Positions 535 to 59,911 of a stretch of 64,000 bases of DNA are shown here, piece after piece; position 1 is the first letter of the stretch; each line of letters starts with the position of its first letter. Origin of the DNA: Selaginella tamariscina. Its lineage: Eukaryota; Streptophyta; Lycopodiopsida; Selaginellales; Selaginellaceae. The stretch covers positions 1 through 64,000 of the forward strand of contig PUQB01000490.1 of the NCBI GenBank assembly GCA_003024785.1, read 5' to 3'. The notes under the pieces are model-generated. The model saw only the letters and a list, made by a program, of their open reading frames with translations, made no database searches and was not told where the DNA came from. The translations under genes were made by a program, and so were the position numbers.

Positions 535-670
535 CTTTGCTCCTCGCCAAAAACCCTAACCCTATTCCCCTTATACTGCCCTTAAATCCGCACCCTTAGT
601 TACCCTTTGTTTAATTACAACTAATGAATCTTAAACCTTAACACATTGTTTTTAGGGTTCATCTTCTTCT
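535..670. promoter_or_regulatory. Short bidirectional promoter with two telo boxes
   Basis: Only 136 bp separate the SF3b5 start (-) from the DAR GTPase start (+). The interval holds AAACCCTAACCCTA near 550-563 and TTTTAGGGTT near 650-659, mirror-placed telo boxes typical of plant genes for translation and growth functions. Shared regulation is inferred. Confidence 0.65.
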
Positions 671-1631
671 ATGGCGCTCGTGAATGCGGACTTAGCGCGC
701 TGGCCGAAGGCGCTACAGTGCAGCAGAATCGATTACAAGGAATGGCGAGCTACAAGCATGCCAAAGGTATGAATACACGCACACAAAGAAAATGTACCGT
801 TGTTGTGAAAATGCGGTATTTTTATGCTAAGATATGACATAAATTGCTTTAATGTTTGTAATTATCAGTCAATTAAGCGTCGAAATTATGTTATTGCATC
901 TTCATCTCTAGCAGTGAAGACTTTCAAGCATGAGAAACCCACATTTGATGTTGATGAACACCGCATGATGACTACGGGCCGATATGTGCAGGTATATACA
1001 TATGCATAGACGTGTGTGTGTGCGTGAGAGAGAGAGAGAGAGTACATGACCATAGAGAATAAAATATAGCACTAACGTGTATATACGAACATATATACTT
1101 AAATATTCAATGTGATAATTTTTCTATAATGTATATAATGCTTGATGATATGTAGTGGTATCCAGGACACATTGCGAAAGCTGAGAGGAATCTAAAGGAG
1201 CAGCTGCTTCTGGTTGACGTTGTTGTTGAGGTGCGAGATGCAAGAATACCACTATCAACTGGCCACCCTCAGGTTCAAGATTTTATATGTTTATTACTTA
1301 GTTGTTTACTTGTTTAGTGTTTATTAAGCTGGACGAGTGGACAGAGGGAAAAAAAAGAGTGCTAGTACTTAACCGGGAGGACATGATATCCACTGCAGAT
1401 AGAAATGCTTGGGCATCCTATTTCGCTAGTAAAGACTTGCCTGTTATTTTTACTAATGGTCAGCATGGGAAGGTACGTAATTGTTGTATCAGTACTAAGA
1501 TATTAATATGTTTGCTAATTTAGTTTTTTGTTATAGGGGTCTATGAAACTCACAAGACAAGCCTCCACTGTAGCTTCGAGCATAAACACAAAGAGAAGAG
1601 CGAAAGGCCTTCTTCCTCGTTCAGTATGGAT

Positions 1632-6264: not shown

Positions 6265-7244
6265 CCTATTCCTAAGCAGAGTATGCACTTGCTGATGACC
6301 TTCCTACCCTTCTTTCTGTAAAAGGTCACCAGTCCAGTCCCTTGGCATCTCCTGCATACTCCCGTCCATTGGTAAATCACATTCTTACAGTTCTGTAATG
6401 TTATATTATACACTAATGTTCACATAGGACTTCTGTTTAACTAGAAATTCTTATATGTATATATAATACATAATACTTATTCGCATATATGGCACAATAA
6501 AATATAAACTATGTACTAAAGATGTACCTCTGTTGTTATTGTTCACATAGAAATATATAAGCGTCCTGTTTAACTATAGAATACATAATACCTATACGCA
6601 TATATTGGCACATTCATTATAAGATAATTTAAACTATGTACTAAAGAAGTACCTCTCCACATCCTTAACAGTTCTGTAATGTTATTGTTCACATAGAATA
6701 TATAAGCGTTCTGTTTAACTAGTATATGTGTATATAATACATCATACTTATAAGCATATATGGCACGTTCTTTATAAGAAAATATAAACTATGTACTAAA
6801 GAAGTACCTCTCCACAGTTACAGTTCTGTAATGTTATATTATACGCTATTGTATATATAAGCGTTCATGTATTATATATACATCATACTGATACGCATTA
6901 ACTATGTACTAAAGAAGTACCTCTGTATTAGGGTCGCAACTTGCAATTTTCTCCACTTCTTCTTTGGAGAGTGGCTTAGAATCTGGGTAAGCCATGGAGA
7001 GAGGCAATGCGTCCTCCTTATCTAACACACTCTCCTTATCCTTTTGCCACCACTTCCATTTCCACTTTGCGAACAATTTGGACCTGCTACTACCGTTCTT
7101 CTGAAGGCCTTGGCGCCGCAGATTCTCGCTAAAATCCCATCCGGGCTGCTCGATTACCGCTCCCAATACTCTAGCTACTCTTCTTGGCTGCACATTTCTG
7201 CAGTATGCCGTGCTGCAGCTGAATGAGGCTGCGAATGCCGACAT
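6004..7244 (-). CDS. DnaJ-type cysteine-rich (BSD2-like) zinc-finger protein, probably plastid
   Basis: Three minus-strand exons: 6921-7244, 6266-6392, 6004-6059 (168 aa; phases agree). The N-terminus MSAFAASFSCSTAYCRN followed by basic residues looks like a transit peptide. The middle is Trp/Lys-rich (KWKWWQKD). It is followed by YPDSKPLSKEEVEKI and then a half DnaJ zinc-finger module: VCRRCQGTG and CILCLGIGYV, two CxxCxGxG-type pairs. Plant proteins of this kind are DnaJ-related chaperones in chloroplasts that bind unfolded clients or provide holdase/thiol activity. An upstream ATG at 7278-7280 lies in the other arm of a perfect palindrome. I prefer the ATG at 7242-7244 because it starts the transit peptide and follows a telo box. 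Intron 1 (6393-6920) is swollen by a tandem repeat. Confidence 0.8.
6384..6932. repeat. About four tandem copies filling intron 1 of the DnaJ-type gene
   Basis: Copies at about 6384-6530, 6533-6662, 6665-6820 and 6821-6932 share AGTTCTGTAATGTTAT, CACATAGAA, TATAAGCGTTCTGTTTAACT, ATATATGGCAC and AACTATGTACTAAAG. They end with AAGTACCTCT, which on the minus strand is the real splice donor context (AGAG|GTACTT). The unit therefore carries a copy of the exon-intron junction. Confidence 0.85.
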
Positions 7245-7284
7245 GAACCCTAAAACAGGGGCCCCTGTTTTAGGGTTCATGTCG
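7239..7284. repeat. Perfect 46-bp palindrome over the DnaJ gene start
   Basis: Two 22-bp arms around a central GC. The left arm starts CGACATGAACCCTAAAACAG and the right arm is its exact reverse complement. Each arm carries a telo box (AACCCTAAAA / TTTTAGGGTT) and an ATG. Confidence 0.95.
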
Positions 7285-7628
7285 AACGTGGAAACCCTTT
7301 TTTACGACAGGTTTCAAATGGAAATATTTTGAATTTGTAATATTAACTCCTGTGTACACATGTTTACACTTGTACATATACGTTTTGGTGGTTATACGAC
7401 AGCCACATGGCAATGCCACGTGGTTGGAAAACACACTTGTATATAACCAACTTTTTGAAGTGATTTAGACAGATTTAGATAATAGTAATATATTAATGCA
7501 ATGTGATTGTGCTATAGTTCTTTAATTAAATAAATAATGTACGTGTGTGTGTGTGAGAGAGAGAGAGATGCATACGCTTTATAAACAGCCCCAGAATTCT
7601 CTAAATCATCAACAGGGTTTTAGGGTTT
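7285..7628. promoter_or_regulatory. Divergent promoter region, DnaJ-type gene (-) / exonuclease gene (+)
   Basis: The 344 bp between the palindrome and the exonuclease ATG contain a telo-box-like GGTTTTAGGGTTT directly before the ATG at 7629 and a (GT)n(GA)n tract at 7542-7568. The mirrored telo box for the minus gene is in the palindrome. No canonical TATA box stands out. Confidence 0.5.
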
Positions 7629-10397
7629 ATGGCGGGCATGGTGCAGGGCCGTCTTGTGCTCCATTCATGGCGATCCTGCACGGGACGGGCTCTATTGAGG
7701 CGATCATTCACATCTTGGCTTCCTTCCGTGAGCTTCCCCACATTCAAGCAGCATCCCTTCCTTCACTCTGGAGAAGTATGCAATTCTGTGTGTGTGCGTG
7801 CTATATACTGGCAATGGAATAACAAATACATGTGCATTTCTGCACGCATACACAATATGTGCTCATATAATGTACCTGATAATGTGTTATGGCGTGCGTA
7901 TGTGTAGATATAGTGAATGTTTAACCTGCATTTACTTTTTACTGGGTCTGGTATGTGGAGTGCATCCATATATTATAACTCTCGTGCAATAAAAAGCCAA
8001 TGGAGTAACAGATACACACACATACACATAGATAGATATCTTTGGTGTTGTATATATAATATGGTGGAGATCCTAATGTGTTATGTACATGGACACACAT
8101 AGTTGTTTATCTATGTTTGCATACAGAATATATGGTGAGGATTCTAGAACATTTGCAACACAGTGTATTTAGGTATTTCTGTGTTTACATGTGCAATATA
8201 CATATAATGACATGATGATTCATCATAATTTCTTTTTATTTATTTATTTATCTAGTTGCCAAGGTGTTCAATACGGGATTTGCCTTATGATCAACCAACC
8301 ACAATGCAGAATAAGGTGCAACAGCATATTCCCATGACTCCAACAAGCACATCCAAAGGACGAATTCTCCTCGTGGATGGCAGTGCAGTTATATTCCGAG
8401 CCTATTACAAAATCATGGGTAAATAAGATGTTTTATGTCTCATATAAATACATATATGCATGGACATGTGTTATATACATAATAGATATGTATGACGCTT
8501 TTTATATATTGGAAAATTCACTGCAGCGAAAGTTTACCACGACATGATCCCAGAGTTACACTCTGAAGCAGATTGGGTGTTGACGGTGTTCACAGCTTTT
8601 ACCACGGTGCGTATGCGTGTGTATATACATACACACGCACACACAGAGAGGGAGGGAGGGAGAGAGATTCACTTATCAATCTAAGTTGAAGTTTATAGGT
8701 TAGCAAGTAATAAACAGAAACAAAACTGACGAAGTCTTACAGATCCTGGGGCTGCTAGATTTAAGTCCTTCCCATTTTGTGGTAGGTTTCTATAATTGTT
8801 ATTAGCGAGCGTTAATCACTCTGAATTTTTCAGGTAGTTTTCGATCATAAAGGTGGGTTTGACGGAGATCAGAAACTAAGTAAGATACGTGTGCGTGTGC
8901 GTGTGCGTATGTGCGCTCTTGTGTCTGTGCATGTGACAATTTATATTATACATTTAGACGTATTATACACATAAAATTTGCATCTTTTCTTTGTGGTTAT
9001 TATATGATGTATTCATATCAAAGATTAAATCATGGTATAATATCGTATATACTGCAGGTTTGACATTTCGACATACACTATTCCCTGAGTATAAGAAAAA
9101 CAGACCACCTACTCCGGACGCAATATATCAGGGCCTTGATTATCTTCGGCCAGCACTCGTTGCCATGGGAATCAAAGTGATAGAAGTGCGTAAGCTTTTC
9201 TATGACGTGTGTGCGTGCGTGTGTGTGTGTGTTTGATAATATTCTATGTTGTACAAACCAGGTTCCCGGTGTAGAAGCGGACGATGTCATTGCTACGTTA
9301 GCGGTTTCAGCAGCTGCTTCGGAGATGAAGGTTTTTATTTCCTTTTATATGTGCACAAGTACATCATGCACATTCATATATGAATGACATCAATAAGCTC
9401 ACATTCACTTTTGTAGGTGCGCATTGTTTCACCTGATAGGACTTCTTCCAGATAATATCTCCCGATATTCGGCTTCTGAGATTTGTTCCCAAGGGTGCTG
9501 GGTTAGTGTGTTCTCTCTCTCTCTCTACTAAGTGTATGCATATATTTCTAATTTTATGCATGCACGTTGCTTAATAGGATGGTTTCTTTTGGGATGGAGG
9601 AATTTTCAGAAAGATTTGGCAGTTTAAAACCATCACAATTTGTAGATGTTCTCTCCCTTGTGGGTGACACCTGTGATAACATACCAGGCAAGTTTACTTG
9701 TATTAAATTTCTATGCAGAGTTATAGAATCAGATTATTTGTAATTGTTGCCTTTAATATTTTAAAAGATTTCATCAGGTATACCCGGCATTGGCGAAAAG
9801 ACCGCGATCAAGCTTATCACCGAGTACGGTAAGCGTTATATCTGGTCTATATATAAAAGTAGCACCTTTTGAACGTGCACACACGCACGCACGCACTTTA
9901 GTTTAAGTTCTATGAACTTCCTTGGTATCTTGTATCTGTTATTTTGTATTAGGATCCATGGAGAATTTACTACAACACAGAGAGAAGGTGGTCCAGAAGC
10001 GAGCTTACAAGGGCCTTATGGCTGACAAAGGCGAGGCATTACTTAGCAAGCGTCTGGTATGTATTTGTTCTCTACATACATACATGTGTGTGTGTGATTA
10101 TTTGGTGTTTAGATTTACTTTCTCTTTGCTTTTAGGTGGCTTTGAGGGCTGATCTACCTCCTTACATGGTACCATTCACAATGGACGACTTCAGGTTGCA
10201 AAAACCGCACGTAAGTGCTGTGGTGTGTGTGTGTGTGTGTGTACATGTATATATTACAGGACAATGGGGAGAAATTGTTTCAACTCTTGGATGCAATGAG
10301 CGCTTTCATTGACAGCAATATTCACCTTGAGTTACGAGAACGCATCCTCTGCCAGTGGAATAAGTTAGAAGCCAAATCGAACTCAACCACATTATAG
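7629..10397 (+). CDS. Organellar 5'-3' exonuclease, FEN/T5-type (PIN plus H3TH); one frameshift
   Basis: Thirteen exons: 7629-7775, 8256-8418, 8527-8606, 8743-8781, 8834-8879, 9058-9185, 9262-9330, 9417-9501, 9578-9687, 9778-9828, 9953-10056, 10136-10210, 10260-10397. Exon 1 encodes an Arg/Ser-rich, acid-poor targeting peptide. The nuclease fold follows: ILLVDGSAVIFRAYYK, VVFDHKGG, FRHTLFPEYKKNRPPTP (helical arch/clamp), VPGVEADDVI (metal-binding acids), VRIVSPD, then GDTCDNIPGIPGIGEKTA (the H3TH DNA-binding helix-hairpin). It matches plant 5'-3' exonuclease family proteins related to the bacterial Pol I 5' nuclease domain, with a likely role in organelle DNA replication or repair. At about 9438 one A is missing where family members have DKDFFQ, which truncates the frame in exon 8. 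Intron 9 begins with GC (CCAG|GCAAGT), a GC-AG intron. Confidence 0.88.
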
Positions 10398-11127
10398 CTC
10401 TAAGGTAATCAGTATATATATCCAATTTACATAAAGATGGGCACCACAAGTTTTGTATAAAGTGATGCGGTGAATATATGTGATTAAGATCTCATAATAG
10501 TGATTCTCTCCAAGTAGCATGCTTACAGTGTATGCCGGTATATATTTTAACACCGTTTATAATTAAAAAAACGTGGCAAATGATTAATATATTTGAAAGA
10601 GTTGTGTACCATTATTATTTGAACCTTTATTAAGAAATCTTATTGCATACTTGATTTGTCAAAATGTAAAAATATAATTACAATCTTAGTACTTGCATGC
10701 TTTTGAACAAGATTATGTACATATATATAACAACATCATTTTTTAGAATTGCTATATTAATCATATTTACCAATATGTAACATTGTGTATATATTACATA
10801 CATATAAAAGTATGTCTTTATAAGCGTGATTTGTATGTGTGTGTTTATAAATTATATTTATATATTATAAGGTCCTGCTCTTTAACTTTTGTTATTCCAA
10901 GTAACATAATTTAACAAAATCAAGGTCATAAGTACATTTGTAAAACTAATTTATGTATAAAATGTAATTACATATGTACGTGCAACATACACATATGGGC
11001 TTTATATGTAAGAATGTGGGATTTTAAATGCAAATGTATTGGTACATAATTGATTTAATATCTAAAGATTTAATCATAATATTATGATGTACATAATATC
11101 AGAAATATTGAAGTCTAACATAATATA
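10398..11127. other. AT-rich intergenic stretch
   Basis: About 730 bp of AT-rich DNA with no supported ORF, repeat or RNA gene. The first part is presumably the exonuclease 3' UTR. Confidence 0.5.
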
Positions 11128-13289
11128 ATGTACATACACATGCATACTCACTTTACAATAGAAGTTCGATCAGATAACCAATATGTAAGGTTGCAACATA
11201 CAAGCACAGAAACAAAAGATGACGTTTGGAGGGCATTAGTTGCTGAGCTAAAACAATGCGGAAGAAACTTGAAAGGAGGTAAACTCGTACATACTAATGC
11301 TATTGAAACTGGCTGTCACACCAACAGATACGTCGCACACACGCTCATATCATATGTATAGCAAGTGTGGTAGCATGCAAGATGCCCGGGAAGTCTTCGA
11401 GAACATGCTTCAGCACCACGCTGTTTCATGGAACTCGCTAATGCTTGGATACGTGGAGAATGGGGAAAGCTTAGTGGCATTGGATATGTTTGCCAGGATA
11501 GACTGCACACCGGACAGTGTTACTTTTGTTGCTGCACTCAAGGCATGCTCAGTCTTGGTAAGTGCCAAACAGTTCAACAAGAAGGTATGTCTAGAGAAGG
11601 GGATGGCCATTCATAGACAAGCCAAGGATTACGGGTTCGATCAGCACGAGTTTGTGCCAAGCACGCTCATAGACATGTATAGCAAGTGTGGGAGCATGCA
11701 GGATGCTGTGTATGTCTTCGAGAAAGCCCTCCATCGTGATGCTGTCTGCTGGACAAATCTTATCCAGGGATACGTGGAGAATGGGGAATGTTTGATGGGT
11801 ATTCAGGTGTTCAACAGCATGGACTGCCCACCAGATAGCTACACCTTTGTTGCGGTCTTCAAGGCATGTACAGGCCTGGCAACTGAGAAACACGGGATGG
11901 CCATTCATAGACAAGCCAGGGAGCGTGGGTTCGATAAACACGTATATGTAGCAAACACGTTGGTGGACATGTACAGCAAGTGGGCAGCATGAGGGATTCT
12001 CGATACGTCTTTGACAATATGTTTAAGCACGATGTGATCTCCTGGAATTCACTGATTCTTGGATACGTGGAGAATGGGCAGTGCTTGGTTGCCTTGGATG
12101 TGTTTGCTAGCATGGATTGTTCACCAGATTGCTTCACATTGACTGCTGCACTCAAGGCATGTTCTTGCTTGGCAACTGAGAACGAGTTCGAGAAAAACAC
12201 ATGGTTAGAGAAGGGGATGGCCATTCATAGACAAGCCAGAGAGCGTGGACTTGATAGAAACATAATCGTGGCTACCACCTTAGCGGAAATGTACAGTAAC
12301 TGCGGTACCATGCAGGACGCACGGTATGTCTTTGAGAAGATGGTGCAGCACGACGTTGCTTCTTGGAACTCTCTAATACTTGGATACGTGGAGAATGGGG
12401 AAAGTCTGGTTGCCTTGAGTATATTCACTAGCATGGACTGTGCAGCAGATAGCGGCACGTTTGCTGCCGTGTTGAGGCGTGCGGTAGTTTGGGTGCGTTA
12501 GAAACTGGAGAGAATACACGAAAGGATACGCGAGGTTGGTTGGAACAGGACGAGAAAGTAGGGACATGTTTAGTGGACTTTTACGGAAGATGTGGGAAGA
12601 TGGCTTGTGCTGAGGAGGTGTTTGGTAAGATGCATTTGCGAAACATAGTGACTTGGACTGCGTTGATCGGAGGATACACCTCGCTAGGGACACGTCTGAG
12701 GTGTTTACGGTGGTGAAAAGGATGCAGGAGAGTAATGTGCATATGGATGGTGTAACCGTGCTCCTTGTTCTTACGGCGTGTAGTCACTCGGGGATGGTTG
12801 AGGAGGGGAGAAGTACTTCGGGTATATGTTGAAGTGCGGTATAAAACCGTGTTTGAAACACTACGCTTGTATGGTTGACATGTTGGGAAGGGCAAACAGG
12901 CTGCAGGAGGCACTCTCAGTCCTTACCAGTATGCCTTTTGAAGCAGACAGCGTGGCGTGGATGACGCTGTTAGGAGCGTGTAAGAAGTGGACTAACGTGG
13001 AGATTGGTAAGGTTGCATTTGATGCTTTGGTGGCTAGGAATGAGGACAAGGAACACGTGGCATCTGCGTACGTGTTGATGGGGGAGATATACAGGAGGTT
13101 GGACATGGAACAACCAGAGGAGGAACAGATTGAAGCAGAGAGGGCTTGGAAGAACACTGGGAAGGCCTGCTATGTAATGTGAATGGAACTATGGTCACCG
13201 GAGATCATATGGAAGGCCAGGTCATAGATAAACTACACAGTTTCTGGGTTGAAGGAAAATATGGGTTCATTAGATCCATGAGTGTATGA
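11128..13289 (+). pseudogene. PLS-type PPR protein gene with E-like tail, about six frameshifts
   Basis: An intronless stretch encodes repeated PPR units with the conserved blocks VSWNSLxLGYVENG, PDSxTFVAALKACS, EKGMAIHRQA and TLxDMYSKCGSMQDARYVFE. Four such arrays are followed by TACSHSGMVEEGR, ACMVDMLGRANRLQEAL, VAWMTLLGACKKW and an E-type tail. Plant PPR proteins of this class bind organellar RNA and often direct C-to-U editing. No DYW motif is visible. The frame changes near 11350, 11985, 12480, 12690, 12815 and 13173. Most are one-base losses, such as AAGTG.GGC for AAG TGT GGC. As written no full protein is made. It could be a pseudogene or a real gene with assembly indels; the repeat units themselves are well conserved. 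Confidence 0.8.
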
Positions 13290-13415
13290 CACTGTATGTA
13301 AAGAAAATTCTCCACATGATTCTTGGGATACAGAATAATAATAATAATAGCATATATGTGTGTTTGTAAAAGGGGCACAGGCGCAGGTCAACGAGCTTGA
13401 CCAAGATTTGTTAAT

Positions 13416-13500
13416 ATTCTTGAATATTCCATTGTTCCGTACGATTTCCGTATAGATATTTTGAATATTCTGTACGGAAATTTTTCGTACTACCAACAAT
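13416..13500. repeat. AATATTC/CCGTAC palindromic repeat, left copy
   Basis: The block has TTGAATATTCCATTGTTCCG and TGAATATTCTGTACGGAAAT close together, with internal palindromes GAATATTC and TCCGTACGa. A related block is at 20555-20635. It may mark an element end; the rest of the 13.5-13.9 kb stretch is AT-rich and featureless. Confidence 0.5.
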
Positions 13501-13914
13501 TAGACCTTCCAAAATCTTTGAGAATATTCTAGTGTGGTGGCTATGGTAGTATATTTATGTTGTATTTAAAGGAAATATACATTAAATTACTTAAAAATAT
13601 GTTAAGCATAAATTATCATTAAAATTTATATTGAAAATTATAAATTTGAAATAGCAAGTATAAAATCGAAGTTATTTAAAAACAAACCAATTACACTAAA
13701 TAGATGGTGGAGGATGGAGGTTCCTTGGTAGTATCAATAAAGAACTCAATTCACAGGGTGCAAGTAGGACAAACTTCAAGGCACAATGGATTTCTTTACA
13801 AATAACATGTCAATCCTTTTGCCAGTTTGTCGATTGAAGGTGGAGAAACAATACATCCTTTCCATTAGTACAATTTGGAAAAGCAGGACAGTTTGGGTTG
13901 ATATAGCAAAGGCT

Positions 13915-14912
13915 CCAACACATTTGCTCCTGGACACTGTGGGCGTGGGATCTTGTTTGACAGTTCACATTACCTGGTTCTTGAGGGTTCATTGAGGGGT
14001 TCTAGAGTTAGTATTTAGAGCCACATTTTGGTACTTGGTGCAACTCTTGAATCTAAGGGCTATGGCATGATAACCCACATCATGGAAGGTAGTGTCACAT
14101 GGAGATGTGACACTGGACTAAACGTCACGCGATATAAAGCCCAAGGCATGTCCTTTGGGTTGTGTCATGGGTTTGTCACCAAGGGGTTGAATACTCTAGC
14201 CAACATGTATGCTTGTGCTTGCACTAGGGTGTTAAGCCTTGGGCATCCGCTCAAAGGAGGTTAAGTCTCGTAACTAGGTGTGTTTTGGCACACTTGGCTA
14301 GGGGAGTGTTTCCTTTGAATCCAGGGTTGAACAACCTAAGCTCATTAGCAAAAGCCCTTTCGTAAGGCACTCGCAAGGTCATGTACTTAGGGTTATCCAA
14401 ACCTAGCCTTAAGGAGTTTGCTTAGCAAAACACTCGTGTTCGTCTACAGCACACACTCGTGTCCTCATTAAGTACTAGCCCTTGGTATAGGGTATGACTT
14501 GGCCACTCAAACCCTTGGGGGTTAGTCGTGGTTCAAAGTACCCCTTGTCGCCCTAAAGGGTTGTACTCCCGGATGAGGATGATTCCTCAAAGGTAAGTGA
14601 CGATGCCTTGACTTTGTCATGAGGGTATGTGTGAGACACATCTCCTTTGTGGGGTAGGGCATGAGCTTGTCTAGGTCTACTGGGACAGGATCCTAAAGTC
14701 TACTCGGGTTATCCTCTAGGGTTTAGGGGATGGTCATTCGAGGGGACTTAGGGTAGGACTTTAAGTCTTTTGCCTAATGGGCCCCTGAGTCAGACTCTTA
14801 GGGTTATCTTGGAAAACTTAACATTGCTCATACAGGGTGATGATGCCGAATGGCCACTTAGCAACCACGTGTTGCCATGTGTTGGCCCTTCGGGTTAAAA
14901 CTCTGACAGTAT
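13915..14912 (+). mobile_element. Dispersed repeat, copy 1 (LTR-like, non-coding)
   Basis: About 1 kb with no long ORF. It is homologous in reverse complement to 36250-36905 and 36987-37915 and more weakly to 34710-34910. Shared landmarks are ACCTGGTTCTTGAGG, CTTGGGCATCCGCTCAAAGG, GGTAGGGCATGAGCTTGTCT and the end TTCGGGTTAAAACTCTGACA. In the opposite orientation the element begins TGTTAGA.TTTTAACCC, so the outer end fits a 5'-TG. A retroelement LTR or non-autonomous element is inferred. Confidence 0.6.
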
Positions 14913-15784
14913 TTGTATTCGGAAGGAGGGAGCTCAAAAATGACATCCCCATCATATGCAACAGGCAATTCATTTGTATGAATGATCATGGAGCCCTCGC
15001 CTTTTGCAGGTATTAGAAGTGAAAAGGTCCTTCAATGTTGAGTATTCAAAGTCAGAAGCAATGACAAGCTTAAACAATGGTCCTCCATCCGATAACAAAA
15101 CATATCCCAGATTATCCTTCCCCCAGCATCTTGGTCCTCGTTTATTTCGAACTCTAAAGCAGATTGCCCATAGAGAAGTTTAAAAAGGCAAACACTTTGT
15201 TAATCAAAAATGCCAAAGAACTTTCTGATCTAATTAGTAAGAATGATTCCAACACCATCTATCACAAGAACATTGTGATCCAAATTGCCGTAAACAATCT
15301 TGGCCATTGTGCAAACAGTTACCCAAACATGACAGAAAAACAACAACATTACCTAATCATCTTTTGGTAAATATCGGATATTATCGTTCCAAAAATTCAC
15401 AATCATGGCTCAACGTGGGCGGATATTTAATTCAAGGAAACGTATAGATCTTAGATGCTAATATAGTATAGCACTTCACATAAAGATAGAGCAATCTTTA
15501 TTGTCTTTTAAATAAATGTGTTTAATCTACATTCATCTGACATATTTATTTATGACTTATTTATATTTTTATTACTTTATTTTACCCAGTTATAAATGTG
15601 TACTAATATAGACATTACAAATACATATTTTTACACAAATATTTGTTTAATTATTAATATATATTTTTTTAACATACAAATCTTTACTTAAATATTGTTT
15701 GTATTTGTATCCTTTGTATAGTACATTATTTATCGCAAGCATTGTATTACTGTTGCATGGTTTGATTAAACACAGTTTTATGAT
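14913..15784. other. Repeat-like and AT-rich DNA, no gene
   Basis: The stretch at 15000-15370 has short open frames but no recognisable domain. 15470-15780 is AT-rich. I see nothing that supports a gene. Confidence 0.4.
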
Positions 15785-15952
15785 TAAGGGTCAAAGGGTT
15801 AAGGGTTAGGTTTAGGGCAGCCCACTCTTCTTCTCCATTCTCCATTGTCGAAAGGCACTTTTGTTCTTCTTTTTTGCGGCCGCTCTTGTTCTTTATTTGC
15901 GGCAACATGAGCTAGTGTGAGCATCATGGCGACATGGCTGCATGTAAAATCT
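15785..15952 (+). promoter_or_regulatory. Telo-box promoter and 5' leader of the ParB-methyltransferase gene
   Basis: GGGTTAAGGGTTAGGTTTAGGG (15795-15816) is a cluster of telo-box-type repeats, followed by a pyrimidine-rich tract (CTCTTCTTCTCCATTCTCC) typical of plant transcription starts. A possible donor at about 15950 (GCAT|GTAAAA) and a good acceptor at about 16758 (GTAATTGCAG) would define a 5' UTR intron of about 0.8 kb ending just before the coding start. Assignment to the downstream gene is inferred from position. Confidence 0.45.
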
Positions 15953-16084
15953 TATGTATGTGTGTGCAAATTCAATAGCAATTTCTGTGCATGTATGTGC
16001 GAATTCAGTAGGATTTCTCTCTATTACGAACGCGCGCGCGCGCACACACACACACCTCTCTGATGGCATGAGTTCTGCTGATTT

Positions 16085-16212
16085 TGGCAAACACACACAC
16101 ATTCCCTGCCAAATTGGCAGGAATTTCTGCTGCCTGGATGGTGCGGCGCGCACCATCCTAGCGGCAGAATTCCTACCGAATTCGGCAGGGAATGTGTGTG
16201 GTTGTGTGTGTG
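16085..16212. repeat. Long imperfect inverted repeat (hairpin)
   Basis: Arms of about 55-60 bp meet near 16146. The left arm (ATTCCCTGCCAAATTGGCAG, then CTGCTGCCTGGATGGTGCG) pairs with the right (GCGCACCATCCTAGCGGCAG, then TTCGGCAGGGAAT), and the pairing extends into the flanking CA/TG tracts. It lies in the proposed 5' intron of the ParB-methyltransferase gene. It could be a MITE-like element or a small-RNA precursor. Confidence 0.75.
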
Positions 16213-16844
16213 TTCACACACACACAAATAACATTTTATACACATACACACATACAAGCACATCATACACATACACAACAAGCAACATCATACACATACA
16301 CACACAAGCAACATTTTACACACGAACATTATGATTATACAACATTAGACTTGTATACATGTGTGTGTGTATTATATATATATATAAATATATATATATA
16401 AATATTATATTATATTATAATATATGTATAAGTATATGAATTTAAGACTTGTATATATGAGATGCTTTTTCGTCTGTATATACATGTGAAGAGATATGAA
16501 TATACCCATATTCTCTCTCACACAGACACATCACAAAACACAAACAACCATTGCACACACACACACATAATCAACATTACACACATACACAAGGAACATT
16601 ATATAGTGAGCACACACACAAACAACATTACACGTATAAATATGTGTGTGTGTGCGTGTGTGTCTATATATATTGATAGGTATACATATATAGTAAATGT
16701 GTGTCCATAAATTAAAACAACTCACACACACACTCTTATCAGTTGTTGTAATTGCAGAATGAGACAAAGGCAGAGTAAGAGACTACGAGATAAATACAAG
16801 ACTTTGACACTTCAGAACATATCGTCCAAGAAGCTCTTGCAGAT

Positions 16845-19800
16845 ATGGCTCCAAAACCTCGTGGCAAGAAAGGAGGCCGAGGCGCCAAGCAACAACTGCA
16901 ACACAAAGAGATGATGCCGACGAACAATGAACCTGTGGATAGTTCGCAAGTCATTGATGAACATACTGTGGTGAGTGAATGGATGCCTAGAAATAGGGAG
17001 ATTGCAGGAAGCTCTGCAGAACACGGTAATGCAGAGGAAGTACCGGATATTGATCTTGGTAGTAAAATGTTCAATAAGAAGAGGAAACTGGATGCTCCTG
17101 AGGATGTTGCCGAATCATATGCAATTCCGGAGCGGCTGACACTTGAGGCTCCATCCAAGCTTCTTCGGGATCTTGTTATTCGGTATGACACAGATATTGA
17201 CACATCGCTACAAGGACGAGACCACTACGTTCCAGTTGAGCTTGGTGAGCCTCCGCGTATCCCGGTTCACAGGTTGCTCCCACACCAACGTTTGAGGAAT
17301 GTCACTAAGGACGGCGTGAAAGACCTTGTTGGATGGATTAGAGCTGAAGGATTTTACCAGGAGACGTCAGTGTTCACCTTATCTTTCGGACCACAGCTGA
17401 GTGCAGACGAACGCCGAAGTTGGAATGAGTCAGAAGCACAGGTCGATAGAGAGTTTGAAGCGGATTTGCATAAGCCAGCATTTTCTGCATGGTATCGATT
17501 TCTGAAAGATGCAAAGTGTGGGATGGGAATCATCGTCGGGTTGCTTTGAACACTTTGCTTGCTGAAGAGCCAGGTTTGAAATGGACTTTGCGTGTACGTG
17601 CAACACTCATAGCATCCACAGTGCAAGAGGAGAAGAGACTAATCGCTGCTTGCAATCGGTTGAATGAGTAAGTGACTTGTTTGTTTCATTATTTAAATAC
17701 TAAATAAATGTTGTTTTGTTTTGCAGAGCAACTGCTCGTGTGGTTCCTACAACAATCATTCACACCTTGCAGTTCTTACGGAATTGTTGTGTGAAGTCTG
17801 CAGATCTTTCTACCGATCATGTTCTTCGCGGGATGCCGGAGGAAGATAGAAAAGCTGTGGAAGTGTGGAGATCGAACAGAAAAGAAGACGTTTGGTACGA
17901 GTATCCAAAGACGACATTGGTGAAGATTTTTTGGGAGGTAATCTTTTCTTCTTCTTTTGACTGTTTTTTGATTTTCGGTTTCTTTTGCAGAATCAACTGA
18001 AGCGACAAATCGCTACAAAACTTGCGAACAGAAAACCAAACCAGACAGAATCTCAGATCCTCTCCAGCGTTTACAAGACATTCACAGTTCGGATGAACAA
18101 ATTCCTCACCATTGCTGATCGCGGTCGGTGAAGATTGGTTCAAGGCGATCACAGATATCACTATCAAACCATCAACGAAGCAAATAACTCTGGAGAAGCT
18201 TCAAATGCTCGCGAAGTCCCAGCTTCCTTCCAACGTCAAGGTTGATATCCTTGGAAAGCTTGTGCACATTCAAGAACGTGGCGTTCTTGAGAAGCTGGTG
18301 AACATGACGGAGAAAGACAAGAAGGAAGGTGTCACCGGCTGGCCTGACAAGGACTTCATCAAGTTTTTGCACATCTTTACTTACTGGTTCCAGGTAATTT
18401 AATATTTATATTTTTCATTTTTATTCGTTTTATCGTGCCAGGTCGCGGAGGCAGCTAAAGAGCTTTTGGTCGAGCATGTAGAGGAGTTCATGACATGGTA
18501 TATGAAGATGCACAATGAAATTAAGTTGGATATGTACCAGAACATGCTCGAGAACAAGGAGTTCGGTGCGACAATTCCACCTCTCGACTATTTGAGCTGG
18601 AAAAATCTGCAAAAAGAATGGCATTCAGGCAAGTTTTTTTTTTGTTTCTTTACAGATTTTTATCTATTTTTACAGGTTTTTAAAATGGAAAGATGCACTC
18701 CCTGAAGATTTCAAAGAGTGGATGGATGTTACCAAGGATTCTAGCATGTGGAGCCGGTTGTTACGTGATATCAGTGATTACGAAGTGGAACACTGTCCTT
18801 TCTGGCTGGATTTCCTTCCTGGTGACTGTCCCGAATGGGAGATGGCCAGCTATAAGATACACAAGGATGATCGGCGAGAGCTATTATGGAAGAACGACAA
18901 TGCTGCAAGGAAGCTCCATGTGAAGATGGATATCAGGTATGCTAGATCGGCGAGCAAGGTCAGCAAGGGACAAGCTTCTTCTTCAGCCCCATCCTTCATC
19001 TCGGCTGGATTGGAAGAAGATGATATGTTGAGGATGGTGATGCCTGAGAAGGGAAATGGAAGCTGGGAAATCATTCATGCAGATTCAGAGAACCTTGCAG
19101 TCCAGTACTTCAAAGCCGGAAGGCCTTTTCCGTCAGGATTGAAGGAGCTTGAGGATTGGATCGTGAGTCACAAGTCAAGTTGGACTATTCATGTGTTTGG
19201 TGCGAAGCCTCCACCAAAATGCATCCAGGGAGCTGTTGATCTCGTTGTCATCGACCCGCCTACCGGATGCGTTGCTGAGGCAGGCGGGATGGTGGATCAA
19301 TACACGAAGTTCTCGGATGCTTTGCTGAAGAACTTGGTGAACCTTGCTTTCGGGATATTAGACAGAGCTGGCCATGTGGTAGTGTTTGTGCTACCGGATG
19401 ATGTTCTAGCTTTGAAGAACACTGCAGAAACTTGCAAGCTAAAGTTTCTGCAGATGAGTTTGTGCACACGACAAAGTCATGGAGATACCGTTTCTCTAGA
19501 AAGGTAATTCTTCTTTTGAGAATGTCATTTTTTAATGTTTATTTTTTCAGGAAAGCATCATTGCCATGTGTATTTTGGTTCCCCCTACTCTAAGGTTGCC
19601 AAGAACAAGGAGATCTTGGACACTCGCTACACTCTTCTTTTTGATGAGCCAGAAGATTTCCAGCTCCCATGGTATAATGTTTTTGTTATTTCTCATGTTC
19701 TAATATTGTAACTTTCAGGATTTCAATTGGCCCGAAATCTCCCAAGTTGTTTGCGATGCTAGTGGAGAAGCTCAAAAGCCTGGTGGAACTGTTGTGGATC

Positions 19801-20364
19801 TAACAGTGGGAACCGGTGCTAGTATTCTTGCAGCTTTTCACACAGGGAGACATGGTTATGGAATCGACATCAACAAGGATCTGGTTTTAGCAGCCAGAGA
19901 TGTCTTCAGGAAGGTCATTCCAAGTGTACAGCAGCTGAAGGTGGTGGGGATGATCAAGTTGTTTCCATGATTACTCCTTTTGATGAGTGGAAGAGGGCCA
20001 TGGAAACAGAAGCACAGGATTTGCCTTTGGCTAGCGACAACGATGGAGACCAGGATCCGCCTTCTCGAAACGACAAGGATGTTGTTACGGAGAAGTCCAT
20101 GGAGCACAACGACGAGTCATCAGATGAGTCAGCAGAAGAGAGATCATACGAGTCATCAATGATGAGTGAGATTTGTTTTATCATTTCTTTGGTTTTAAAC
20201 TTTAATATGTTTTCAGTATTGTTCTACCAGACTACGCTAATCAGATGGCAAAGAAAATGGTTGAAGAGTTCGAAGTTTACGTTTGGAGAAACGTTCACGA
20301 CACCGTAACAATGCATTCATTAACGACGAGGCATTGGCTGGTGGAAACGAGTCTTCATGATTGA
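16845..20364 (+). CDS. ParB-like domain fused to beta-class DNA N6/N4 methyltransferase (intron-containing)
   Basis: Probable exons: 16845-17667, 17727-17937, 17991-18393, 18442-18632, 18676-19503, 19551-19671, 19719-20165, 20217-20364, with very short introns of about 42-59 bp. The N-terminus is basic (MAPKPRGKKGGRGAKQ, AT-hook-like). A ParB/Srx-type fold follows: RIPVHRLLPHQRLR, DLVGWIRAEGFYQE and VWDGNHRRVALNTLL. The C-terminal half has the methyltransferase motifs: VDLVVIDPPTGC (motif IV, about 19240-19270) before VVDLTVGTGASILAAF and GYGIDIN (motif I, SAM binding, about 19790-19870). That order defines the beta class (PF01555-like). ParB-methylase fusions are known from bacteria and phages, so the domain set suggests ancient transfer. 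A Ser/Asp/Glu-rich tail (about 20100-20165) follows. Frameshifts are near 17517, 18118 and 19950, and junction phases at 19503/19551 and 19671/19719 do not agree. Motif IV has DPPT instead of DPPY/F/W, so activity is uncertain. Confidence 0.65.
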
Positions 20365-20554
20365 GTTATGTTTTATTGTAATTTTTATTTAGTTTGATGC
20401 AGTATTTATATAAAAATATAATTATAGTTATAAATATAAATATTAAAAAATAAAAACATAAATATAAATATAAATATATAAATATATATGTCAGATTAAC
20501 CCCAAATTTGTGAAACTTTGACACATTACCGTGCCGCCATGATTGCTCCCGCCG

Positions 20555-20635
20555 CACCAGAATATTCTTTATATGAAACGAATATTCTGTACGGAATGGA
20601 ATATTCCGGTATGACGGAAATCCGTACGCTCGGCA
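20555..20635. repeat. AATATTC/CCGTAC palindromic repeat, right copy
   Basis: GAATATTCTGTACGGAATGG, GGAATATTCC and GGAAATCCGTAC cluster here, resembling 13416-13500 both directly (GAATATTCTGTACGGAA) and in reverse complement (GAATATTCCATT.CCGTAC). Confidence 0.5.
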
Positions 20636-20699
20636 AACTGCGCTCGAGGAAATGTCAAACCCATTGAAGCTCACTAAGATTTGCCCCAAAACAGTGATG

Positions 20700-36249: not shown

Positions 36250-36905
36250 AAATGTTAGAGTTTTAACCCAAAGGGCCAACATGTGTAACACGTGGTTGCT
36301 ACGGCGTCATCATCCTGGATGAGCAACGCTAAGTCTTCTAAGATGACCTCAAGAGTTTGACTCAGATGCTTAATTAGGTGGAAGGTTCAAAGTCCTACTC
36401 TAAGTCCCTTAGACTAATTATCCCTAAACCCTAAAGGATAACCCAGTAGACCTAAACAGACTCATGCCTTAACTTCATTAAGGAGATGTGCCTTACACAT
36501 ACCCCTATGATAGAGCTAAGGCATTGTCACTTACCCCTTAAGGAATCACCCTCATTCAAGCATACAACCCTTTTTGGGTAACAAGGGTAACCTGAACCAC
36601 AACTAACCCTTAAAGGTTTGAGTGGCCAAATTATACCCTAGACTTAGGCTAGTACTTAGTGAGGACATGAGTATGCACCATACGCAAACACAAGTGTTCT
36701 GTTAAGCAAACTCCCCAAGACTAGGTTTGGATAACTCTAAGTACATAACTTTGCGAGTGCCTCATGAAAGGTCTTTTACTAATGAGCTTAGGTTGTTTAA
36801 CCCTTAGATCCTAAAAGAACACCCCTAGCCATGTTTGTCAAAGCACACCTAGTTACAAGACCTAACCTCCCTTGAGCTTATGCCTAAGGCTTAACACTCT
36901 AGTGA
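36250..36905 (-). mobile_element. Dispersed repeat, copy 2
   Basis: In reverse complement this matches copy 1 (13915-14912). Shared blocks include TGTTAGAGTTTTAACCCAAA, GACCTCAAGAGTTTGACTCA, CCCTAAAGGATAACCCAGTA and GTGCCTCATGAAAGG. The copy is truncated near 36905. Confidence 0.65.
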
Positions 36906-36986
36906 GAACAGTCATGGAATGTTTTTTATGAGATCAGTCAATGGAGATGCTATTTCGGAGTAATCTTATATGAATTTATAGTAATA

Positions 36987-37915
36987 TTGTTAGAATTTTA
37001 ACCCAAAGGGCCAACACGTGGCAACATGTGGCCTTTCGATATTAATTCCCTATGTGAGCAATGCTAAGTCTTCTAAGATGACTTCAAGAGTCTGACTCAA
37101 ATGCCTAGTTAAATAAAAGATTTAGAGTCCTACCTTAAGTTCCCTAGAATGACCATCCTCCGAACCTTAAAGGATATCATGAGTAGACTTTAGGATCCTA
37201 TCTTAGTAGACCTAAACATGCTCATGCCCTAACCTTGCAAGGAGATGTGTGTCACACATACCCATGTGATAAAGATAAGGCATTGTCACTTACCCCTTGA
37301 GTAATCACCCTCATCCGGGAATACAACCCCTTTAAGGCGACAAGGGGTACCCTAAACCATGACTAACCCCTAAGGGTTTGAGTGACTAAGTTATAGCCTA
37401 TACCTAGGGCTAGTACTTAGTGAGGACACGAGTATTCTACTAAGCAAACTCCTTAAGGCTAGATTTGGATAACCCTAAGTACATAACCTTGTGAGTGCTT
37501 TATGAAAGGGCTCTTATTAACAAGCTTAGGTTGTTCAACCCCTGGATTCCAAGGAGAACACTCCCCTAGCCAAGTGTGCCAAACACACCTAGTTACGAGA
37601 CCTAACTTCCTTTAAGCAAATGCCCAAGGCTAAGCACCCTAGTGCGAGCACAAGCATGCTTATTTATTAAAGTATCCAACCCCTTGGTGACAAACCCATA
37701 ACACAACCCCAAAGGGCGTGCCTTGTATCATGTGTCGTCTAGCACAGTGTTACATCTCCATGTGACACTGTCTTCCACGATGTGGACTATCATGGCATAA
37801 CCTTTAAATTCAAGAGTTGCACCAAGTGTCATAAATGTGGCTCTTAAATGCCAACTCAAGAACCCCTTAGTAAACCCTTAAGAATTAGGTAATGTGAACC
37901 TGTCAAAAAAGATCT
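36987..37915 (-). mobile_element. Dispersed repeat, copy 3
   Basis: It begins TGTTAGAATTTTAACCCAAA, directly downstream of copy 2 in the same orientation, and runs further than copy 2 through GGTTGTTCAACCCCTGGATT and CCAAGTGTCATAAATGTGGC to TAGGTAATGTGAACCTGTCA. It has no ORF of note. Copies 2 and 3 could be paired LTRs collapsed onto each other, or a tandem duplication. Confidence 0.65.
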
Positions 37916-38620
37916 CATGTCCAAGGACACAAATGTGCCCTGTTTGGCCATGAGTGTTACATCTAACTTGACGTGGAGGAGGAGACTGGAAATAAGCCTC
38001 AACCTCTGCCTCTTGGAACGTGCATTTCGACAAGACCTTTAAAGCATGGATTCGTCAATGTAAATGTGAGCTACCCCGAAGGTGGGACATACCTTTGTCA
38101 TTTGAAAGTTAGGGCGGCACAACAGAGGGTTGTGCCTTAATAACATAAGCTATAGCTTGTACCGAGAAGAATAACAAACTCAATCATGAACCTAGGAATC
38201 CTCACTCCTACATACTGGCTTATAAATGCCACCTCTAGAATCCCTATGTGAATTCTCAAGAATTTGGTAAAGAGAACATGCTAGCCAAAATATTAACAAA
38301 ATTTATTAGTAAAACATTATAAATATGTTTTGACAAAAATGTTGAATAATATGAAATAAAAAAAAACTAGCCCATTATTTAGTTAATGAGATGACCCAAG
38401 TGGGTTAAGTCAACCTTAACTAATCAGCCTAAGTGGGATGTAATTTTCTAAAAGGTAAATTTTAGCTTTGCTTATAGTTTCTTGTAAATACCTATGGCAC
38501 CCGGCCAAACCATCACCAAATACCCAAGTGCACTAAATGGGCATGTTTCCTTAAAGTTCATTAACATGGTATAGTAAGTAACAATAATCAATGTTCAAAG
38601 TAAAAGGTCGAATTGTAATA
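37916..38620. mobile_element. Second repeat family (matches 21.9-22.5 kb)
   Basis: The order of short matches to 21900-22480 is conserved in the same orientation, ending at TACCCAAGTGCACTAAATGG. It is non-coding. Confidence 0.5.
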
Positions 38621-48800: not shown

Positions 48801-50501
48801 CCGTTTGACTTCTGAAGTCGAGAGTTTGACCAGGCAGAGGAGTCTAGAAGTCGGGAGGCTGACCAAGAAGCTGGAGGGTTATGAGTTGACCAGTCAAGAG
48901 CTGAGGAGTCTAAGACAGAAAGTTGGGAATATTCTTGAAGAGAAGCACCTGTTGGAGGAATCTAAGGCGGAGGCTTACGCACATTTGCAGAAGGCTTCTG
49001 AGGAGAACGACTTATTGCAAGGTCAACTTCGGTCGAGGTCAGAGGAGATTGACTTATTGCAAAGTCAACTCAGGTCCAGGTCTGAGGAGGTTGACTTGCT
49101 TCGCGGACAACTTAGGTCAAAGTCTGACGTCATACAAGATCAACTGCGGTCATTGGAAGAGCAAAACAAAGATTTTCAACAGGAGTTCAGTGAATTGGAA
49201 TCAGTTGCAAAGCAGCTTCTGCAAATTATCTCTGGCAATGAGGTATGAACTGCATGCACACACACACATGAGAGAGAGAGAGAGAGCTATCGATGATGCT
49301 CTATAGTAGGTGTACATATGCATGTGTGTGTGTGTTAAGCTGTTTCTGCTTTGTTACCAAGTTGCCTTCTTTGTTAAATAACAGATGCAGATGGTTTCCG
49401 TGAAAGGAAATAATGAATCCGAGCATACTGGTCATTTCAAAAGGCTTTGTTTATAAAAGGCTTCTTGATGAAAGCTTAGCTGAGTTTAAGCAGAGAATTG
49501 AACATTTAACGGTGCTTAAGCGGAAAACTGAAGCACTGGAGCTAAATGAAAAACTACTACTTGGGCAACTTGCTTTCCAAAAATCGGGTAATCTCTCTGT
49601 CTCCCTACCTCCCTCTCTCCCAATGTTGTTGTGTGTGTGTGATGATTACTTATATTAGGTTATCGTGTATAAAAATTTATATATGTAGTCATTATACAAC
49701 ATGACCATCTCTCATGTCATTCTTCAAAATCGAGGAGAAGACACAAGAAGAAGTAAGGTATGAAGAAACTATAGACCCACACGAGGAGAGGGGGAGGAGG
49801 GAGTGAGAGTGGGAGTGGGTGGGGGTAAACATACGTTTTAAGTATTAAACCGACTTTCTGTGAAGGAAGCTCATTATAGTATGATAAAACAGTATATTAC
49901 TAGATTTTCAATTAATATTATTCTTGTTGTTTTATACTTAGGCTTTATGCACGCGTGGAAAGCTGGAGGATATAATAGAGCAAAACCATGTAACCATGGA
50001 AAACATGGAGAGTGCACGTAACAAGGCAATGGAAAGTTCACATTTACACTTAACAAGTTTCAGGAGCTTCAGAAGCAATGCGAAGCTATGTTAGTAGAGA
50101 TCGAAAGCCTTCAAACGAGCTTAGATGGATGCCACGTGGAGATGTCCGCCTCAATTCCAAGGTAGTTTTACTATTTGTTAATAATATGAATTATTGTTAC
50201 AGTCCTAGTTAACAGACGTATAACCTCAGGGAATGTGTATAGAGACCAACCCTGTAAAACGTTAACTTGCATATTATAAGTAATGTGATTTTATGTTTAC
50301 ATAATATTTACGAACAGGTCGAGTCTCTTCAGAAGGACTTACATGAAAAAGATACAAATCTAACAATATTAGAAGGCAAGTTAAAGCTTCTTGGTGCAAA
50401 GGTAACCCAAGAACAGGCTCCCACAAAGGTCAGTTGCCTCTGTGTGTGTGTCTGTGATCTGAATGGTACTAACTAAATTAGCACTATATAACTCCTCTCT
50501 C

Positions 50502-54868: not shown

Positions 54869-55557
54869 TCAGGGAGCAGCAAGCTCAACCCCGAAGAGAC
54901 GTGTAGAACTGGGAGGAGTATGATGAACTGTGTTCATGTCCATCTTCATCTGTGAGGACGAAGACGATCCATCGTCTTCCTCGTTCCACACGTACCTCTG
55001 CTGCTCGAGAGAGGTGGCCATAGCTAGAGTATCCATCTCCGAGGAAGAAGACGCCCTGGGCCTCTTCCTGCAGCTTATGTAGTAGAAATTCTCCCTCAGG
55101 CTTCGCTCGAACGACACTATGTTCCCGCACAGAGCTTATTCTCCTTCACGAACCGTATCCATCCCTTGGTGAACACATAGCTCTGGGAGCTGTTCCAGTG
55201 AGTAGCGGAACCACCATATCTTACCAGTGACAGTCTCCTGGAAGGACAGAAACCTGCCCTTCTTACGCAGGCAGGGATCCAGGGGAAAGCACCTCTCAGC
55301 GTGCTGCTTGGGTATGACGAGCCTGTTCAGCTTCCCCACGTCGCTGGGGGTCACCACTTTGTAGAACAGATGCTCGTGCTCCTCCTCGCGTATATACTGG
55401 AAACTCTGTGTGGGTACTGCATCGTGGGGCTGATATGGTTCTTTCCAGCCGGGAACATGCTCAGTAGCTGTGTCTGGTGCTGCTCCTGCTCTGCAGTAGG
55501 CAAGAACACTCGCTCGTGTCTTCTTCCGTCTGTATACATGTCTTCACTGAATTCCAT
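54869..55557 (-). CDS. B3-domain transcription factor, NGATHA/RAV type (copy 1, frameshifted)
   Basis: Intronless on the minus strand from ATG 55555-55557. The B3 domain is clear: [52 protein letters not shown], then [19 protein letters not shown] and [20 protein letters not shown]. This is the RAV/NGA group that reads CACCTG-type DNA. A C-terminal [12 protein letters not shown] follows, the RLFGV repression motif of RAV, NGA and class B HSF proteins. There is no AP2 domain. The frame changes at least twice: between the N-terminal Gln-rich part and HLFYK (about 55380-55500), and at FRYS/WNSS (about 55196), where copy 2 has TACTCATACTGG and this copy has TACTCACTGG. It is head to head with copy 2, about 3.5 kb away. 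Confidence 0.82.
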
Positions 55558-59080: not shown

Positions 59081-59911
59081 ATGGGATTGTTTGCATTGAA
59101 CTGGGGAGGACTTGGAAGAGAAGGCAAGAGACAGAGGTTCGATATCTTCCCTCACGAACAGAATCAGTCCCCAGTTGTTTACAATCCTGGCGAGATTATT
59201 CGTCCTTCACAGAATGCTGCATTCCCCTGCTGGATCTTGTCCCAGCTGGAACTACCACTGCAGTAGTCTCTCCGGGCAAGCGAGCCCATTGTACACCAGT
59301 GTAAAGCAGCATATGTTGCTCAGCCATCCTCCGGAGGCAGAAAAGAAGCTACACAGCATGTGCAGAGCTACTCTTCAGAGTCTTCCAGCTCCTCACACGA
59401 GCATCTCTTCTACAAGGTGGTGACGCCCAGTGATGTGGGTAAGCTGAACAGGCTCGTGATTCCTAAGCAGCACGCCGAGAGATGGTTTCCCCTCGACCCG
59501 TGCCTCCGCAAGAAGGGCCGCCTCCTTTCTTTCCAAGATGTAGTCACAAAGGAGCTATGGTGGTTTAGATACTCATACTGGAGCAGCAGCCAGAGCTATG
59601 TACTAACCAAGGGTGGATTCGATTCGTCAAGGACAAGGATCTCCAAGCTGGGATATAATTTCGTTCGAGCGCGGAGCGAGAAACGAGCTATACATCAACT
59701 GCAGGAAAAGGCCGACAACGAACAGATCAGGACCAGCATTCAGCCTGGAGCTTCCACATTCCTCCCGTCCTCGGCTTTGCCCAATATCTGCATATCCCAT
59801 TCAGATGAAGATGAAGAGGAGGAAGGAGTGTCTGTTACAACACGGCTCTTTGGAGTGGATCTCAGAGCCAAGCCTACGCCAGTTAGTGAGCACATTCAAC
59901 AGTGTATGTAA
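59081..59911 (+). CDS. B3-domain transcription factor, NGATHA/RAV type (copy 2, frameshifted)
   Basis: The start [20 protein letters not shown] is followed by a low-complexity region whose frame changes near 59270-59310. The B3 domain begins [19 protein letters not shown] and continues through [35 protein letters not shown] and [11 protein letters not shown]. Three one-base losses follow (about 59610, 59652 and 59690-59740); the intervening frames read [13 protein letters not shown] and [19 protein letters not shown]. The C-terminus has an acidic patch (DEDEEEE) and [12 protein letters not shown] with the RLFGV repression motif. The predicted role is a nuclear DNA-binding repressor in organ or leaf development, by family. 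It is a diverged inverted duplicate of 54869-55557. Confidence 0.82.

Follow-up and report, generated by a model that had tools for sequence, protein, structure and literature searches.

We examined 64,000 nucleotides of Selaginella tamariscina DNA (GenBank assembly GCA_003024785.1, contig PUQB01000490.1, positions 1 to 64,000; hereafter the window, which is the start of contig C827) and found that the intron-bearing plus-strand gene at 16845-20364 belongs to a DNA transposon as its accessory gene and is not a one-off acquired plant gene. The element family is present in hundreds of copies in the S. tamariscina genome. With moderate confidence, we propose a two-gene, Mutator-like transposon whose accessory protein recognises the element's own ends and either modifies them or reads S-adenosylmethionine (SAM) there. 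A sequence-only reading of this DNA had considered the gene as either an acquired plant gene or the cargo of a mobile or viral element; the mobile element stood, whereas a one-off acquisition is at odds with the many copies and a virus with the lack of any viral relative confirmed at the sensitivity used.

The transposon became apparent from searches of the 300.7-Mb assembly (1391 contigs). With the exon at 18677-19505 as query, 140 of 990 candidates were scored and 148 matches obtained; apart from the window itself, 29 of these have one identical score, are 99% identical over residues 1-263 and contain no stop, which makes the gene more than a chance feature. For the PF01555 profile, 150 of 739 first-look candidates were scored, with 150 matches. 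Copies from three families were fetched, namely A (e.g. L012, L013), B (L015, L018) and C (L035; the family of the window copy), and element ends were defined by copy-to-copy comparison, which revealed a sharp end of similarity in each family. The full family C element on contig C548 is 8.9 kb long and has terminal inverted repeats (TIRs), a perfect 9-bp target duplication and an intact gene for a protein of 1063 residues. Between its 5' and 3' TIRs lie, in this order, minus-strand transposase-like open reading frames (ORFs) and, head to head with them, the accessory gene on the plus strand; the same two-gene layout is found in families A and B. Family A begins with GAGGATTGGCAAAAACC and ends with TTTTTGTCGGGACTC, family B begins with GGGTCTCGGCGAAAAGG and has a 3' end in CACTC, and family C begins with GGGGCACGGCGAAATTC and ends with ATGTCAAACCC; the TIRs are imperfect, and GRGNNNNGGCRAAA is, by eye, common to the 5' ends of all three. 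Tandem repeats lie between the head-to-head genes of L012 (1452-1862, family A) and L015 (1607-2189, family B), where they are possibly a shared promoter.

Of the 14 family A copies whose two ends were both read, 8 are flanked by exact 9-bp target duplications; the other six comprise two with 8 bp, two with an 8/9 match, one with the duplication after three extra T and one, C69, with none. For family C they are exact in 5 of 11 copies (C548, C646, C771, C838 and C1026; one of the five, CTCTCTCTC, is low-complexity), while C484 shares 8 bp and C1 6 bp at the flanks. Two of the three family B copies read have duplications of 8 bp, the third being without a 5' TIR. Whole-genome pattern counts yielded 146 family A 5' ends, 98 family C 5' ends and 87 family C 3' ends, with 0 for the reversed-pattern controls of the A and C counts, and 55 of the 58 same-strand pairs of family C ends are spaced 8.0-9.6 kb apart (median 8,915).

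Members of the Mutator (MULE) superfamily produce target-site duplications of 8-11 bp, mostly 9 bp. The 9-bp duplications of A and C, the 8-bp duplications of B and the TIRs agree with this assignment. A D..D..CxxH pattern can be seen by eye in the transposase-like ORFs, as can a CxCx(n)CxH finger, with a CxC..CxH pattern in the family C ORF. The SWIM profile PF04434 matches one family A ORF (E 0.0014; 18.5 bits, cut-off 19.6) and gives no match on the C ORF; a SWIM finger in the transposase is possible. Other Pfam matches on these ORFs (LST1, Fer4_2) are at chance level. The MULE transposase profile PF10551 has 77 matches genome-wide, from 150 scored of 158 candidates, none of them in an element fetched. 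One of 16 identical-scoring canonical PF10551 matches, C1004:211841-212128 (+), sits within a family C copy, between its 5' end at 219262 and exon 5 pieces at 209197-209978, and probably marks an ordinary MULE nested in that copy.

The accessory gene itself begins with an ATG at 16845 and has eight exons separated by seven introns of 47-59 nt, one of which is a GC-AG intron (Table 1). The spliced gene described in the sequence-only reading was recovered, with seven introns where at least six had been counted and with every motif in place, WDGNHRRVAL at 17519-17548, VIDPPT at 19247-19264, DLTVGTGAS at 19797-19823 and GYGIDIN at 19854-19874. The C548 copy (L035) encodes the uninterrupted protein of 1063 residues from eight exons, and the family B copy L018 an intact protein of 992 residues, the two being ~30% identical. 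With the splice sites as used, no complete open gene could be assembled from any of seven family A copies; family A was compared as exon blocks. The PF01555-type methylase domain was confirmed in the C-terminal half of both intact proteins (E 3.5e-8 and 34.1 bits in C; E 1.1e-8 and 35.8 bits in B), over the curated cut-off of 26.7 bits, and phrog_67 matches residues 609-992 (E 7.5e-11). Searched against solved sequences, the methyltransferase profile gave 13 matches at E<=0.01, of which the first four are MboIIA, CcrM and two DpnA entries and later ones include ribosomal protein and RNA methyltransferases; all are through the motif I half only. Motif IV precedes motif I in beta-class amino-methyltransferases, and this order is seen here, with DPPT at residue 739 and DLTVGTG at residue 890 of 1063. 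Motif I is kept across families.

The N-terminal domain is probably ParB-like and bears a weak resemblance to the DndB/DGQHR branch, as judged from motifs and profile comparisons. WDGNHR is invariant in the aligned A, B and C copies, and the N-containing stretch that follows it resembles MFADLN of DndB, a protein counted in the ParB superfamily (PMC10853773). An hhalign comparison of the A/B/C profile with one plasmid DndB gave 73% (E 3e-5), whereas an unrelated phage protein scored 0.2%. Weak matches on the C protein were obtained for TIGR03233 (E 0.012) and TIGR03187 (E 0.16). At E 1-7, the ParB-like domain matched two plasmid and two phage records, among them an annotated dndB aligned over 26 residues. 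No match of the N-terminal domain profile was found among solved structures at E<=5.

The element ends carry arrays of the palindrome GAATATTC. In four full elements (one of family C, two of A and one of B), 23 of 23 occurrences are within 300 bases of an end. An unguided 8-mer count over 200-bp ends of one element per family (six ends, 1,200 bases; interior 23,573 bases) returned only AATATTCT and the overlapping GAATATTC as 8-mers present in all six ends of the three elements, where GAATATTC occurs 17 times in the 1,200 terminal bases and 0 times in the interior, and AATATTCT 24 times at the ends and once inside. Seven copies of GAATATTC are found in the whole window, six at the ends of the element and the seventh at 48927. 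From this distribution, GAATATTC is a candidate binding site for one of the element's two proteins.

Families A and B have diverged to saturation at synonymous sites (pS 0.79-0.89), and over this distance the accessory protein has stayed under purifying selection. In the domain regions pN is 0.22-0.34, with 0.22 for the middle region, 0.25 for the motif I exons, 0.27 for the ParB-like region and 0.33 for the surroundings of motif IV; in the N-terminal tail it is 0.44. The protein thus seems to matter to the element.

We hypothesize that the accessory protein probably helps the element to act on its own ends. The DndB/ParB-like N-terminal domain would recognise the GAATATTC palindromes near both ends, and the C-terminal beta-class amino-methyltransferase domain would then modify those ends, at N6-adenine or N4-cytosine, or read SAM there, with the result that copies would evade silencing by the host or become competent substrates of the transposase. 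As a working analogue we take VANC of the Arabidopsis VANDALs, an anti-silencer that is sequence-specific and self-directed; in the present protein a DNA-modifying domain would take the place of the demethylating effect. A more specific form of this idea, which we advance only tentatively, is a self-directed epigenetic writer, in which a DndB/ParB-like clamp would load on GAATATTC and the amino-methyltransferase would place N6-methyladenine (6mA) or N4-methylcytosine (4mC) on the ends. If true, the element would possess a private DNA mark outside the 5-methylcytosine (5mC) system of plants, shielding it from silencing or licensing the transposase, and self-writing would account for the recent spread of the elements to hundreds of copies.

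Several results weigh against this proposal or parts of it. Flank matches are absent from four of the 11 family C copies (C550, C608, C701 and C993) and from one of the 14 in family A (C69), in some cases perhaps because of assembly joins. PF10551 gave no match on the transposase-like ORFs searched; because the duplications and TIRs fit but this profile does not match, the element is named Mutator-like and not a proven MULE. The ParB-like domain of the sequence-only reading survives as a ParB-superfamily-like N-terminal motif, but PF02195 (ParB_N) has no match in the plant's own genome at E<=1, a profile that does match in 11 of 14 control genomes, and the DndB/DGQHR resemblance is below cut-off, with E 4.8e-4 and 19.7 bits for PF14072 on C (cut-off 29.1), no match of PF14072 on the A and B proteins and none of the DndB profile genome-wide at E<=0.001. 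It may also be the transposase, rather than the accessory protein, that binds GAATATTC. No dN/dS ratio can be drawn from A and B because dS is saturated (infinite under the correction used). Finally, motif IV is DPPT in C and DLPN in A and B, the catalytic consensus [DNS]PP[YFW] is matched in none of the three families, and catalysis is uncertain since the motif has no aromatic residue; in the bdelloid N4CMT, a change of SPPY to APPA abolished activity (PMC8885841).

This last point leads to a possible, though doubtful, alternative within the same transposon, that the methyltransferase fold is a non-catalytic SAM-binding module and the protein a DNA-binding cofactor of transposition or anti-silencing, not an enzyme. 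Such cofactors are known in maize, as TNPA and MURB. The unusual motif IV (DPPT/DLPN) favours it, as DLPN is kept between A and B despite saturated synonymous sites and therefore looks selected, not decayed, and motif I is retained; the matches to PF01555, phrog_67 and adenine-methyltransferase structures speak for an enzyme, as does one pairwise alignment that places VIDPPTG over VIDPPYN of MboIIA, though at a negative score. Mutator-like elements are also able to capture genes. It is nevertheless quite unlikely that the accessory gene is a passenger of host or bacterial origin, taken up in the style of Pack-MULEs (mentioned in PMC12477816) and of no use to the element, since it is found in all three families examined, in the same orientation to the transposase-like gene, even at the ~30% identity between C and B, and the constraint on the protein between A and B argues against neutral cargo. 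Furthermore, no relative outside the elements was found in the collections searched (own genome, viral, prokaryote and phage; no other plants).

The remaining explanations are scarcely credible. The introns and the plant context would fit an acquired single-copy nuclear gene serving the host as a writer of 6mA or 4mC, but the numerous near-identical copies with TIRs and target duplications at their borders do not. For this locus, the many relatives and the element structure rule out a single acquired gene, though a domesticated copy might exist at another place in the genome. Equally improbable is bacterial contamination or an integrated giant virus fragment. Fusions of ParB with PF01555 are enriched in phages (PMC12704722), but the gene has introns and plant flanks, and searches of IMG/VR, GTDB and phage collections confirmed no relative at the sensitivity employed. 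Viral contigs gave 4 and 30 pattern matches and prokaryote genomes 42, with 0 confirmed as relatives in either, and none was confirmed in the phage collection; at E<=10 the B protein drew 605 weak phage records, the lowest E among the ten listed being 9e-3 and all ten covering only the methyltransferase end. The PPR, B3, ZF-HD and bHLH domains in the window identify it as land-plant DNA, in agreement with the plant context assumed in the sequence-only reading, and the bacterial contaminant contig join named there as a possible refutation is improbable.

The window copy of the two-gene transposon is a derivative without the transposase core (Table 1). It is a mosaic, with 82.6-86.1% identity to the C548 copy in the alignable left pieces and 98% from 16298 onward, and no matching target-site duplication was found for 13372-20662. 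An N-terminal transposase-like ORF at 612-926 (-) of L035 falls inside the segment matched by window 14909-16101. The accessory gene in the window is out of frame in several places; over the eight exons it differs from the intact C548 copy by 10 indel events and 4 substitutions, a ratio that suggests uncorrected long-read error in a repeat, more than decay, as the origin of the frame breaks, though the copy may also be a true pseudogene. Single-base indels also separate family A copies from each other. Window 6500-14500 recurs with 100% identity on contig C528, and past the 3' end of the element the right flanks of the two differ (C528:6500-20674). As C528 leaves the element into different DNA, the right flank of the window element, or its join, is doubtful, and the pair represents a redundant contig or a wrong join at a repeat. 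The family C copies on C550 (L063/L064) and C838 (L073/L074) likewise have a common 5' flank and different 3' flanks; together, these mismatches render assembly joins inside the repeats suspect.

Table 1. Features of the transposon copy in the window (positions in the 64,000-nucleotide stretch).
Feature	Position	Strand	Comparison
Family C transposon copy, 5' TIR remnant to 3' TIR, derivative without transposase core	13372..20662	.	3' end at 20662 common to three other copies
5' TIR, diverged, TIR-like GGGGCACAGGCGCAGGTCAACGAGC	13372..13400	+	C548 5' end
Subterminal GAATATTC palindromes, left end	13422, 13463, 13522 (13422..13529)	.	
Decayed remnant, transposase-like N-terminal region and intergenic part	14909..16101	-	82.6% identity to L035 471-1719
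Exon 1, basic tail and DndB/ParB-like domain (probable) with WDGNHRR	16845..17667	+	7 bases shorter than in C548
Exon 2	17727..17937	+	100% identity with C548 exon 2
Exon 3, middle region	17991..18393	+	
Exon 4, followed by GC-AG intron 18629-18675	18442..18628	+	
Exon 5, motif IV region VIDPPTG	18676..19503	+	
Exon 6	19551..19671	+	C548
Exon 7, SAM-binding motif I DLTVGTGAS	19719..20165	+	
Exon 8, ends at stop	20217..20364	+	
Subterminal GAATATTC palindromes, right end	20560, 20580, 20599 (20560..20606)	.	
3' TIR	20628..20662	-	87 genome matches at <=3 mismatches, 44 exact including this one; reversed control 0

Inside the window element, a repeat at 13940-14913 (+), in a segment not aligned with the C548 copy, recurs on the minus strand at 36.25-36.90 and 36.98-37.92 kb (36253-37923) with 73-83% identity, and constitutes another repeat family. 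Elsewhere in the window, PPR repeats occupy two overlapping reading frames at 11273-12501 (+), which probably represent a single PPR gene that is either frameshifted or a decayed copy, and B3-domain reading frames at 55136-55543 (-), below the B3 cut-off, and 59267-59911 (+) have a 28-residue stretch in common. A search of the whole window with Rfam at gathering scores gave no match.

The high-copy, near-identical copies in a vascular plant make the function of ParB-methyltransferase proteins testable in a land plant, and with the terminal GAATATTC arrays as a probe of defined sequence, binding and methylation could be assayed. Should the ends carry 6mA or 4mC, this would be a transposon that writes its own non-5mC mark. 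The findings also call for caution, as annotated N6/N4 'DNA methylase' genes in lycophyte genomes may be transposon genes and not host epigenetic machinery. Among the open-licence PMC articles listed, by title and opening of the abstract, no published ParB-methyltransferase transposon protein was found for lycophytes, ferns, mosses or Mutator-like elements.

Transposon-encoded DNA methyltransferases have been described in retrotransposons of Symbiodinium and Klebsormidium and, as Dam-like enzymes, in DIRS elements; those are C5-cytosine or Dam-type enzymes of retroelements, whereas here a beta-class N6/N4 domain is found in a DNA transposon with a probable DndB/ParB-like domain (PMC5890265). 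The bdelloid N4CMT and the Marchantia 4mC methyltransferase likewise exemplify bacterial-type amino-methyltransferases in a eukaryotic nucleus, but they are host genes, not transposon genes, and N4CMT has SPPY and a chromodomain (PMC8885841). The VANDAL/VANC system of Arabidopsis is similar in that, besides the transposase, a second protein targets elements of its own family via short, clustered motifs, YAGTATTAC/T for VANC21 and AGTTGTCC/AC for VANC6, tandemly repeated in introns and upstream regions; it differs in its DUF1985/DUF287 domains and in its effect, which is loss of methylation (PMC5735166). The closest published parallel is an accessory protein with a ParB-like and an N4C/N6A methyltransferase domain in Sola1-1_Ec32 of Ectocarpus, reported in an article that also cites transposon proteins of green and red algae and whose authors propose that the algal accessory protein binds and modifies the element's own DNA (PMC12477816). 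The expectation of an undescribed system was therefore too strong, because such ParB-methyltransferase proteins are in print for algae, the only hosts from which the articles consulted report them in transposons. As in Sola1-1_Ec32, both domains reside in one protein opposite the transposase, with weak support for the ParB-like part in Selaginella. That case concerns an alga and a Sola element, and the present one a vascular plant and a Mutator-like element with a 9-bp duplication and a possible SWIM finger; the Selaginella element is further set apart by its high copy number and perhaps by its non-consensus motif IV and subterminal GAATATTC arrays, the algal proteins being compared by description and not by sequence. 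What is new here is thus the vascular plant host, the Mutator-like element, the high copy number and the palindromes.

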